In this document: positions 3,250 through 25,850 of the stretch, piece after piece
How the letters are laid out: each line of letters starts with the position of its first letter
Position numbering within the stretch: position 1 is the first letter of the stretch
Source: Candidatus Sumerlaeota bacterium
GTDB lineage: Bacteria > Sumerlaeota > Sumerlaeia > JAFGJS01
Assembly (NCBI GenBank): GCA_016928995.1
Contig: JAFGJS010000042.1
Location: 1-64,000, forward strand
Length of the DNA stretch: 64,000 nucleotides
Direction: 5' to 3'
Translations under genes and position numbers: made by a program
Notes under the pieces: model-generated
Told to the model about the DNA's origin: nothing
Seen by the model: only the letters and a program-made list of their open reading frames with translations
The model's database searches: none

Positions 3250-3292
3250 ATTTCAGTTGGGTGAACAACAATCTATAACGGAGTGGCCAAGT

Positions 3293-3772
3293 ATGCTGAT
3301 ACGCAATTACGGATTGTTCTGGAGACGAGACGATGTCTTTTGGGGTAGACCCAAGAATGCCGGCACATTATTAGGACGACGAGCGGATCAAAGACGTTCT
3401 GAACCGGTCGATTTCAGAGATCAAACTGGAATATATGCATTATACGCAGATTATAGGCTCGTTTATATAGGCCAAACTGCTGGAACTGGGAAACAATTGC
3501 TTGCGAGGCTCAAAGATCATCTTGCCGATGATCTTGCCGGACGATGGGATATGTTTTCTTGGTTTGGCACACGTCAAGTAATTGCTGGCGGTGATAAACT
3601 GAAAGCTCCTAAAGCTGGTGCATCAACAACGCTTGAAACCGCGCTAAATCATATGGAGGCTATACTCATTCACGTAGCTGAACCTCCTCTTAATCGACAA
3701 GGCAGTCGATGGGGGAGGGCAACCAAGCAGTATCTTCAGATCCATGATGAGCGCCTTGATGATGATGAATAA
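3293..3772 (+). CDS. GIY-YIG nuclease-fold protein
   Basis: The 159-residue product has the GIY-YIG core: 'TGIYALYADYRLVYIGQT' carries the two defining tripeptides, and a downstream helix 'LLARLKDHL' supplies the conserved Arg and His. A later 'HMEAILIHVAEPPLN' gives the metal-binding Glu and the conserved Asn-like turn. Stand-alone small GIY-YIG proteins occur as repair, restriction or homing-type nucleases. Nothing here tells which. ATG 3293 has a GGAG site 9 bases upstream. A TTG at 3257 in the same frame is only 7 bases past the previous stop and is less likely. It heads a cluster of small accessory genes, and this stretch looks AT-richer than the flanks. Confidence 0.8.
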   Translation: MLIRNYGLFWRRDDVFWGRPKNAGTLLGRRADQRRSEPVDFRDQTGIYALYADYRLVYIGQTAGTGKQLLARLKDHLADDLAGRWDMFSWFGTRQVIAGGDKLKAPKAGASTTLETALNHMEAILIHVAEPPLNRQGSRWGRATKQYLQIHDERLDDDE

Positions 3773-3871
3773 CCTCACCACCTGGTCGCCTAGCCACGCT
3801 GAAATGATGAAATGGGAACGCTTAACTCAATTACAGTTTATTCGCGTTCATCGCGGTGAAAGAGAGATATT

Positions 3872-4360
3872 ATGAAAAAAAGCGTGTATATTGAATCATC
3901 GATTCCGAGCTATTTAACTGCTCGTCTCAGCCGGGATATCCGGACAGCCGGATGGCAGCAGGTTACCATGCAATGGTGGGATGAATGTCGGTGTGAATAC
4001 GACCTCTTCACTTCAGAACTTGTTATTGCGGAGATTTCAGCCGGGGATGAAGAAGCTGTCGAACGCAGATTGCGAGCAATGGATGGGATTAATGAATTGC
4101 CGATTGACGATGCGGTTGAAACTTTGGCGGAAGAATTGATTAAGAGGGGGGCTCTGCCAAATACAGCTCAGGCGGATGCGATTCACATTTCCGTTGCGGC
4201 AATTCAGGAAATCGATTATCTTTTAACTTGGAATTGCAGACATATCAATAATGCCGCCATGAAACCTGCAATGAGAACAGCGTGCGCGGATCTGGGGTGT
4301 TGCTGTCCGGAAATCTGCACGCCGCTTGAGCTGCTTGGAAAGGAATCCGGCGATGTATAG
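3872..4360 (+). CDS. VapC-family PIN-domain toxin
   Basis: The 162-residue protein belongs to a recognisable VapC subfamily that begins with 'VYIESSIPSYLTAR' and ends with 'YLLTWNCRHINNA'. PIN toxins are Mg-dependent ribonucleases that cut specific RNAs. Candidate acidic metal ligands are Glu8 (an Asp in many PIN proteins), Glu54 in 'VIAEISAGD', and Asp102 in 'AQADAIHIS', with Asn121 near the end of the core. The start ATG 3872 is preceded by a GAAAGAGAG tract. The stop overlaps the start of the next small gene by 8 bases, so the two are translationally coupled, with toxin first and partner second. Confidence 0.85.
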   Translation: MKKSVYIESSIPSYLTARLSRDIRTAGWQQVTMQWWDECRCEYDLFTSELVIAEISAGDEEAVERRLRAMDGINELPIDDAVETLAEELIKRGALPNTAQADAIHISVAAIQEIDYLLTWNCRHINNAAMKPAMRTACADLGCCCPEICTPLELLGKESGDV

Positions 4361-4520
4361 CGATGAAATCATTTCTGAAGTGTGGCGCCATCGAGACGAT
4401 TATGCCAAAAAGCATCAATATAGCCTTAAAAAAATGATCGCTGATTTAAAAAAACGGCAGAAGCGACCTTTTACTCGGATTATTGACCGAAGAGCCTCCA
4501 AACACATGGATGGCATCTGA
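4353..4520 (+). CDS. Putative antitoxin partner of the VapC toxin (55 aa)
   Basis: This 55-residue protein reads 'MYSDEIISEVWRHRDDYAKK' and ends in a basic tail. It resembles the short acidic-then-basic proteins commonly encoded right after this VapC subfamily, which are usually left as hypothetical. The ATG at 4353-4355 lies inside the last codons of the toxin gene and follows an AGGAATCC site. The 8-base overlap and matching size support an antitoxin role, but I do not recognise a named DNA-binding domain in it. Confidence 0.65.
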   Translation: MYSDEIISEVWRHRDDYAKKHQYSLKKMIADLKKRQKRPFTRIIDRRASKHMDGI

Positions 4521-4683
4521 TCGGCAAGCCATCCTTCTTACACTAATTTTTTTCAGCGCGGGATTGAAAATCAGGCCTTTTTTCTTGAGCATGGTTTATA
4601 GTTTTAAAGCGTTGAGGTTGGAGCTGTTGTCGGTGTTGACACTGCCAACCCTTGAGAGTTATGGTTTGGGATGGAAGGTTGAC

Positions 4684-4989
4684 ATGACTGGAATCATCGA
4701 AAATATGCGCGAGCCTATCTCGGAAATTTGCGCGCGGCATGGGGTAGCGCGGCTGTATGTGTTTGGCTCTGCGCTTGGCGATAGCTATGAGCCGGGAGAA
4801 AACGATCTCGATCTGCTCGTGGAATTCGCGCCGATAGAGCAGTATGCGCGGGTGGAGATTTATTTGGCTGCTGGAAGAGCTTCTACGCTGCTGCATACGA
4901 AGATCGATCTAATCATGGCTGGCGCCGTGATGAATCCATATATCGCTCGCGATATCGAGCGGACGAAACAGGTGCTTTATGCCGCGTGA
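4684..4989 (+). CDS. MNT-domain nucleotidyltransferase (MntA-like antitoxin)
   Basis: The 101-residue protein has the minimal nucleotidyltransferase signature: 'YVFGSALGDSYEPGENDLDL' gives a GS followed, 11 residues later, by DxD, then 'LLVEF'. MntA-type proteins neutralise HEPN RNase toxins, in studied cases by adding AMP to a tyrosine of the toxin. The ATG at 4684 follows GGAAGG about 5 bases upstream. A longer in-frame extension to 4483 overlaps the antitoxin gene and looks non-coding. The final codons overlap the start of a HEPN gene fragment, so the antitoxin here seems to have lost its partner. Confidence 0.85.
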   Translation: MTGIIENMREPISEICARHGVARLYVFGSALGDSYEPGENDLDLLVEFAPIEQYARVEIYLAAGRASTLLHTKIDLIMAGAVMNPYIARDIERTKQVLYAA

Positions 4990-22295: not shown

Positions 22296-23177
<882 letters not shown>

Positions 23178-23235
23178 AAACTGATGAACGATGACAAACA
23201 TTTAAACCATAAGATCGCTATGGAAGCAATCCTTT

Positions 23236-23544
23236 ATGCAAATCCAAAACCTTGATATACCGGAACAGCAGATTGAAGAATACTGCCGGCAGAAGCGTAT
23301 TCGCAAAATGATGCTGTTTGGCAGCGTTGTTCGAAACGATTTTCGCCCGGAAAGCGACGTTGATGTGCTCGTGGAATTCGAGCCAGAAGCCAGAGTTGGA
23401 TTGATTCGATTTGCAGGAATGGAACTTGAACTGACCGACTTGTTGAAGCGGAAGGTGGACCTGAACACGATCGATTTTATCCATCCGGAATATCGTGATG
23501 AAATTTTGCGAGAGGCGCGACTGATTTATGACCAGGCACAATGA
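23236..23544 (+). CDS. mntA: MNT-domain nucleotidyltransferase (MntA-type antitoxin)
   Basis: The 102-residue protein has the signature 'MLFGSVVRNDFRPESDVDVL', that is GSX10DXD, followed by 'VEF'. MntA-type proteins neutralise their HEPN partner, in studied cases by attaching AMP units to a Tyr near its RNase site. ATG 23236 follows GGAAG. It sits 58 bases after cysD, and its stop overlaps the next gene's start by 17 bases, which points to tight coupling. Confidence 0.9.
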   Translation: MQIQNLDIPEQQIEEYCRQKRIRKMMLFGSVVRNDFRPESDVDVLVEFEPEARVGLIRFAGMELELTDLLKRKVDLNTIDFIHPEYRDEILREARLIYDQAQ

Positions 23545-23875
23545 TGAAGTGCGCCTACGGGATATGTTGAGCCATGCTGAGGAAGCCTGCTCTATGACAG
23601 CAAGCCGATCTTTGGATGATTTGAAAAAAGATCGCATGCTTGAATTGGCGCTTGTTCGCCTTGTTGAAATAATCGGTGAAGCAGCGGCGCGAATCAACGA
23701 AGAGACCAAGGTGAAGTGTGGAGCAATTCCATGGCCGCAAATTGTCGGCATGCGAAATCGTCTCGTGCATGGATATGACAACATCGATCTCAATCTGCTA
23801 TGGGATACAGTGCAGGACGACCTTCCGCTTCTCATCGACGCATTAAAGAAAACTCTCGACAATCTGGAAAAATGA
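23528..23875 (+). CDS. hepT: HEPN-domain RNase toxin (HepT-like)
   Basis: The 115-residue helical protein has the HEPN active-site motif Rx4HxY at 'MRNRLVHGYDNID' (Arg76, His81, Tyr83) and 'VEIIGEAAARINEE' as the conserved third helix. HEPN toxins are RNases that cut tRNA or mRNA. The Tyr is the residue AMPylated by MntA in described pairs. ATG 23528 lies within the antitoxin gene. The stop at 23873-23875 is immediately followed by the cysN start at 23876. The full domain and intact motif distinguish it from the broken HEPN fragment at 4979. Confidence 0.9.
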   Translation: MTRHNDEVRLRDMLSHAEEACSMTASRSLDDLKKDRMLELALVRLVEIIGEAAARINEETKVKCGAIPWPQIVGMRNRLVHGYDNIDLNLLWDTVQDDLPLLIDALKKTLDNLEK

Positions 23876-25753
23876 ATGGACAGCACAATGTCGCATACAA
23901 CCGTTCAACAGGCTGGCAAAGTTGGCGTATCCGATACGCGTGAGAAGATGAATATCGTGATCGCCGGGCACGTTGATCATGGCAAGTCCACCATCATCGG
24001 ACGGATGCTCGCGGACACGGATTCGCTGCCCAAGGGCAAGCTGCAATTTGTGCAGGATCAGTGCGAGCGCAACTCCAAACCGTTCGAATACGCCTTCCTG
24101 CTCGATGCGCTGAAGGACGAGCAGGCGCAGGGCATCACCATCGACTCCGCGCGCGTCTTTTTCAAAACGGAAAAGCGGCACTACATCATCATCGACGCGC
24201 CGGGGCATATTGAATTTCTCAAGAACATGGTCACCGGCGCCTCGCGCGCCGAGGCCGCGCTGCTGGTGATCGACGCGCATGAGGGCATTCAGGAAAACTC
24301 ACGCCGGCATGGCTACATGATCTCGATGCTGGGCATCCGGCAGATCGTCGTGCTGGTCAACAAGATGGACCTGGTGAATTACGACGAGCAGACCTATCGC
24401 CGCATCGTGGAGGGATATACCGAATTTCTCCAGGGCATCGACGTTGAGGCGCGGGGCTTCGTGCCGGTGAGCGGAATCAACGGCGACAATGTCGCGTCCC
24501 CCAGTCAAAACATGCCATGGTACAACGGCAAGACCGCGCTGGAGTTCCTCGACGCTTTCAAAAAGGAAAAGCCGCCGGTGGACAAGGCTTTCCGCATGCC
24601 GGTGCAGGACGTCTATAAATTCACCAAGTCCCAGGACGCCCGCCGGATTATAGCCGGAACCGTGGAAACCGGTCAACTCAACATCGGCGACGAAGTCGTG
24701 TTTTATCCATCGGGCAAGAAAAGCCGGGTGAAATCCTTCGAATCATTCAACGCCTCGCCGCCGGAGCATCTCATCGCCGGCGACGAGGCGGGTTTCCAAC
24801 TTTCCGAACAAATCTACATCAGACGCGGAGAACTCGCGGCGCGATCCGACCAGTCGCCGCCGAAAGTCGCAAGACGCATCAAGGTGAACCTGTTCTGGAT
24901 GGGCCGCGAACCCATGACCAAACGCAAGCGCTACCTGATCAAGGTTGGCGCCGCGAAAGTGGAGTGCGAACTGGAAGACATCACGCGCGTGATCGACGCT
25001 TCGGCTCTGAACAGCGAATCGCAGAAAGACCAAATCGAACGGCACGACGTGGCGGAATGCACGCTGCTGCTGCGCAAGGCCATGGCCTTTGACGTGGCGG
25101 AAGACGCGGCCGCCACCAGCCGCTTCGTCATCGTGGACGACTTTGAAATTCGCGGCGGCGGCATCATCCGCGAAAAGGTCGAGGACGAACAGGAGTGGAT
25201 TCGCGAGCACGTCATCATGCGCAATCAGAAGTGGGAAACCAGCATGATCAGCAAGGAGCAGCGGGCGGAGAAGTACAACCAGAAAGCCACACTGATCCTG
25301 GTCACCGGCGACAAGAACGCAGGCAAGAAAACGCTGTCGCGCGCGCTGGAGGCGCGGTTGCTCGCTGACGGAAAAATCGTTTACTTCATCGGCATCGCCA
25401 ACATCCTATATGGCGTGGATGCGGACATTAAGATCGAGCATAGCGACGAGCATCACAAGGAGCATCTGCGGCGTCTCGCCGAAGTGGCGCATTTGATGCT
25501 CGACGCAGGATGCATTCTGATCGTGACGGCCGTGAATCTGACCGAGGACGACTTGGAGATCATCCGCGCCACCATCGATCCGGATTTGATCGAGGTGATC
25601 TGGGTTGGCGACGCGGTCAAGACAGACATCGAAATCAGCCTGCGCGTCGCCTGGAATGAAGGCGTCGATTGGAATGAAGGCCTGGAAGCGAATCTAAACC
25701 TGATTAAAGGCATGCTGCAGGACAAGGGTTTGATTTTCAATCCGGCGAGGTAA
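23876..25753 (+). CDS. cysN: Sulfate adenylyltransferase subunit 1 (CysN) fused to a degenerate APS-kinase-like domain
   Basis: The 625-residue protein starts with the CysN GTPase: G1 '[10 protein letters not shown]', G3 '[12 protein letters not shown]' and G4 'NKMDLV', then the beta-barrels with '[20 protein letters not shown]' and '[18 protein letters not shown]'. This part powers CysD. From about residue 465 an APS-kinase (CysC)-like fold follows, but its Walker A reads '[11 protein letters not shown]' (residues 476-486, with Lys485 where Ser/Thr is expected). The place of the APS-binding 'DGDNxR' reads 'GIANILY'. '[20 protein letters not shown]' is conserved. The kinase may be inactive or changed. 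The start directly follows hepT. An ATG 12 bases further is an alternative. Confidence 0.9.
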
Positions 25754-25813: not shown

Positions 25814-25850
25814 AAAAAAAAGCGCGGGGAAAAAATTCCCCGCGCTTTTC
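25814..25850. terminator. Bidirectional intrinsic terminator between cysN and rpoC
   Basis: A perfect 9-bp G/C-rich stem (GCGCGGGGA at 25822-25830 with TCCCCGCGC at 25837-25845) has a short A/T loop. It is flanked by A's on the left (25814-25821) and T's on the right (25846-25849), so it has a T-run in both orientations. It lies between the convergent ends of cysN and rpoC. Confidence 0.9.

Follow-up and report, generated by a model that had tools for sequence, protein, structure and literature searches.

Type VII toxin-antitoxin modules of the HepT/MntA class are defined by a GSX10DXD motif together with an RX4HXY motif, and MntA adds AMPs to a tyrosine of HepT, which blocks the RNase (PMC7641770). 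In Shewanella oneidensis the antitoxin gene comes first in the MntA/HepT operon and the two genes overlap (PMC4621449), and in Thermus thermophilus HB8 the lysine biosynthesis genes were reported in 2009 to have an MNT-HEPN module inserted within their operon (PMC2701414). The locus considered here lies on a 64,000-nucleotide stretch of a Candidatus Sumerlaeota contig (the window, to which coordinates refer if not stated otherwise), where such a pair sits between the two subunit genes of ATP sulfurylase. It is very probable that a type VII module entered the cysD-cysN gap horizontally and resides there as a passenger with intact motifs, made from the cysD promoter.

By the positions of the open reading frames in the window, cysD, mntA, hepT and cysN follow each other in this order, all on the + strand. 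The upstream flank is the host gene cysD (22296..23177; PF01507), coding for the sulfate adenylyltransferase small subunit, which matches NCBIfam NF003587 with 346 bits (cut-off 195). After a spacer of 58 nt with a GC content of 0.345 (23178..23235) follow mntA (23236..23544), a predicted minimal nucleotidyltransferase antitoxin (PF01909/PF18765; E=1e-16 for PF01909 in a domain search), and hepT (23528..23875), a predicted HEPN ribonuclease toxin (PF01934; E=8e-25), the 3' end of mntA overlapping the 5' end of hepT by exactly 17 nt. The downstream flank, the host gene cysN (23876..25753; PF00009), encodes the GTPase subunit of ATP sulfurylase with 343 bits to TIGR02034 (cut-off 336) and carries a C-terminal APS-kinase-like domain (PF01583). 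Coordinates and domain searches confirm the 17-base overlap and the position between cysD and cysN claimed in an earlier note on this DNA. Both subunits of the CysDN-type enzyme are encoded together, an order kept in 150 sampled junctions, and both genes flanking the pair have been left intact. Chance falls far short of explaining two paired intact reading frames with the motifs of matching families.

With neighbouring PF01909 and PF01934 genes, both above the gathering cut-offs, the pair falls by domains and motifs into the type VII HepT/MntA class as a divergent but motif-complete member. The MntA motif is intact (G29 S30 ... D41 x D43, reading GS-X10-DVD) and invariant in eight of eight aligned sequences, the window protein and seven relatives, and HepT reads RNRLVHGY, with R76, H81 and Y83 equally invariant (8/8, again the window and seven relatives). 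The NCBIfam equivalog models NF047752 and NF047751, narrower than the motif-based definition of HepT/MntA (PMC7641770), have a cut-off of 60 bits that neither protein reaches (MntA 49.9, HepT 46), and we class the pair as a divergent member instead of an NCBI equivalog for this reason. These low scores could also be expected of a decaying, inactive remnant; however, both frames are open and every catalytic motif residue is in place, which makes decay distinctly improbable.

The nearest solved relative of MntA by sequence is the nucleotidyltransferase 1wot (E=1e-8). HepT matches the HEPN toxin chains of 7ae6, 7ae8 and 7ae9 weakly (E about 0.004), essentially in the motif region alone: the shared part is an RNRLVH-Y-D core, in which the RNase motif and the modified tyrosine lie, whereas overall sequence similarity is very low. 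The S. oneidensis pair SO_3166/SO_3165 resembles the window pair in its PF01909/PF01934 domains, the antitoxin-first overlap and both motifs (PMC7641770; PMC4621449). As homologues share motifs and gene order, the mechanism can be assigned by analogy and the enzyme activities inferred: MntA would use ATP to place AMP on Y83 within the RX4HXY motif of HepT and thereby switch off the RNase; if MntA were lost or diluted, HepT would become free to cut RNA.

The CysD type found here is widespread over many phyla at 73-78% identity, and among 178 distinct cysD genes sampled 150 are followed by cysN on the same strand. The gap from cysD to the conserved cysN start has a median of 80 nt in these 150 junctions, with 120 gaps of at most 150 nt, 19 of 151-400 nt and 11 above 400 nt; in the window it measures 770 nt. 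MNT or HEPN relatives (E<=1e-5) occur in none of the other junctions (0/150). In the nearest relative compared (G005), which belongs to the same class and has a 74% identical CysD, cysD adjoins cysN without the pair and about 100 nt separate the cysD stop from the conserved cysN start, so that the site is empty in a comparison between families of one class. Over the pair GC drops sharply, from about 0.60 to 0.47, the low-GC tract spanning the 58-nt spacer, the pair and the cysN leader (0.51 vs 0.58 for the cysN core), and GC3 is 0.51 in mntA and 0.49 in hepT compared with 0.81 in cysD and 0.78 in the cysN core. This foreign composition is supporting evidence, weak alone since low GC3 is also seen in several other genes of the window. 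The empty G005 junction, the absence of the pair from all 150 other junctions and the GC drop support the proposal of the earlier note that the pair was inserted cleanly without breaking the operon, and the four-gene order did not turn out to be widespread. An ancient order, with loss of the pair from other lineages, is barely credible: G005 is a single close comparison, which leaves some room for it, but loss would be needed in each of the 150 sampled junctions across many phyla and the composition of the pair is unlike that of its neighbours. Gain of the module by horizontal transfer into a short cysD-cysN gap, confined to this lineage among the lineages sampled, would account for the arrangement.

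Elsewhere in the window, positions 3257-4989 hold a run of three low-GC reading frames, possibly another toxin-antitoxin-like patch, with a PIN-domain protein (3872-4360) and a nucleotidyltransferase-domain protein (4483-4989).

Related pairs in the same class, with proteins 47-57% identical to those of the window, lie in unrelated gene neighbourhoods, as expected of a mobile module. A search for direct and inverted repeats found neither a target-site duplication nor paired terminal repeats at the borders of the pair, and transposon insertion is not claimed in their absence. To our knowledge, toxin-antitoxin modules usually lack target-site duplications and terminal repeats. A search of its own genome found the pair and its flanks nowhere else; this genome holds a second, diverged MNT-HEPN pair (G000 C62:55804-56371; HepT identity 36%). 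Relatives of HepT were not found on viral contigs, phage records gave three weak matches (28-38% identity), and plasmids carry many HEPN relatives at an identity of at most about 52% over part of the protein. With relatives too weak, partial or absent, no plasmid, phage or viral vector was identified for the pair.

The last base of the hepT stop codon is 23875, and the next base, 23876, opens an ATG in frame with cysN, which agrees with the claim that hepT ends one base before cysN; this ATG is, though, one of three in-frame candidates (23876, 23888 and 23948). Conserved CysN sequence starts at 23948, and an N-terminus comparison shows that the leaders of relatives before this point are short and variable, as are the 24 codons of the window leader (23876..23947). 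Translation of cysN may therefore start up to 72 nt downstream of 23876, and whether hepT abuts cysN hinges on the chosen start. At the other end of CysN, the APS-kinase-like domain (25217-25750) has no DGDN-type motif and reads GIANILYG; this sequence is retained in a relative (L033), and its preservation suggests that the domain has a conserved role other than as a kinase. G000 C126:54836 encodes a separate APS kinase in which a DGDN-type motif is present.

Scans from cysD to cysN found no terminator apart from a weak match inside mntA, and no convincing promoter between the four genes, with promoter-like matches inside mntA and hepT; separate signals for each unit are thus not apparent to scans that, for promoters, cover sigma-70-like sites only, a consensus that may not fit this phylum. 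RNA folds of the 58-nt spacer and of the hepT-cysN border were no better than those of shuffled sequences. The intergenic gaps amount to 58 nt (cysD-mntA) and 0 nt (hepT-cysN). A hairpin rich in GC and accompanied by a T tract (25820..25850; gcgcggggaaaaaattccccgcgctttt) lies in the space that cysN shares with the convergent rpoC; the scan matched it on the - strand, and it is likely the terminator of the four-gene unit. Lack of an internal terminator, the small gaps and a strong hairpin after cysN alone make the shared transcript proposed in the earlier note plausible, and transcription of all four genes as one unit, from a promoter ahead of cysD, is likely as the simplest reading of the sequence.

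The S. oneidensis pair differs in this respect, as its own promoter has been mapped, about 30 nt upstream of the genes and bound by the antitoxin (PMC4621449), while for the window pair, placed between two subunit genes, none was detected. An autonomous unit with its own promoter in the cysD end or the AT-rich 58-nt spacer, which its own MntA would repress as in S. oneidensis, nevertheless seems unlikely: within the reach of the consensus used, the spacer contains no sigma-70-like site, the nearest matches being those inside mntA and hepT. Even then the transcript would run on into cysN, as no terminator follows hepT.

Location on the same strand, tiny gaps and the lack of a strong internal terminator would equally allow common expression if the pair were kept in the operon for a benefit to sulfate activation. 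This selected coupling is highly improbable. The arrangement recurs in 0/150 other distinct junctions, relatives of the pair reside in unrelated contexts, and no sulfur-responsive element was identified; an association absent from all other sampled genomes argues against a selected functional link. Nothing supports the suggestions that the operon stabilises itself or that the output of toxin depends on sulfur status. Horizontal entry as a passenger is the preferred reading: the pair is probably not regulated separately and would be expressed, before cysN, by way of the cysD promoter. Its likeliest role, as we infer, is that of a passenger toxin-antitoxin module that owes its expression to the cys operon.

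The same junction carries other genes in other genomes. Six of the 11 other long gaps (>400 nt) contain, on the operon strand, a PF05635 gene (23S rRNA IVP, S23), namely in Chlorobiota (L042:1536-1895), Calditrichaceae (L047:7069-7431), Neomarinimicrobiota (L053:7240-7616, a disrupted copy), Bacteroidetes (L065:7040-7429), Melioribacteraceae (L074:5855-6286) and L147 (2727-3083), the last identified by a purpose-built profile of such proteins and not by the PF05635 model itself. The CysD proteins of these six genomes are about 73-77% like that of the window. IVP/S23 proteins are four-helix bundles, and as the six are just 27-45% identical to each other, several independent insertions are likely; one old, fast-evolving insert could also account for them. 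Additional IVP genes lie downstream of cysN in L053 (two) and upstream of cysD in L042 (one), and in the genome of the window an IVP gene is located about 3 kb from the second MNT-HEPN pair (G000 C62:59251). Other occupants of the cysD-cysN gap are a Fic/DOC gene on the - strand (L212:544-1407), two tandem Uma2 genes on the + strand (L217:2338-3533) and a CitMHS-type transporter gene (L031).

An IVP gene occurs in five of 62 named junctions, against three such genes in the remainder of the same 798 kb (Fisher p about 1e-4, assuming roughly one gene per kb). As two of the same loci account for these three, the long gaps had been noticed before the test was framed and cysD-cysN is the sole gene-pair junction surveyed, without a control junction, this enrichment is a lead and not a result. 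The IVS/S23 elements of 23S rRNA have been described as selfish (PMC4990558). Only tentatively, and with some doubt, can the junction of the widespread CysDN type be considered a repeatedly used spot for small selfish or toxin-antitoxin-like genes, where the gap between subunits of one enzyme may provide a passenger with protection from deletion and steady transcription. Reuse by unrelated small selfish-like genes would permit testing which of these, protection from deletion or steady transcription, is the reason why such genes settle in operons.

The closest precedent for the insertion is T. thermophilus HB8, where a module of the same class lies within a biosynthetic operon and the syntenic locus of a relative is without it (PMC2701414). 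It differs in that another operon in another phylum is concerned and that two strains of one species were compared (PMC2701414). As MNT-HEPN insertion in metabolic operons has been published (PMC2701414), the window pair is a fresh instance of a described phenomenon and provides a clear example of a type VII toxin-antitoxin passenger in a core metabolic operon.
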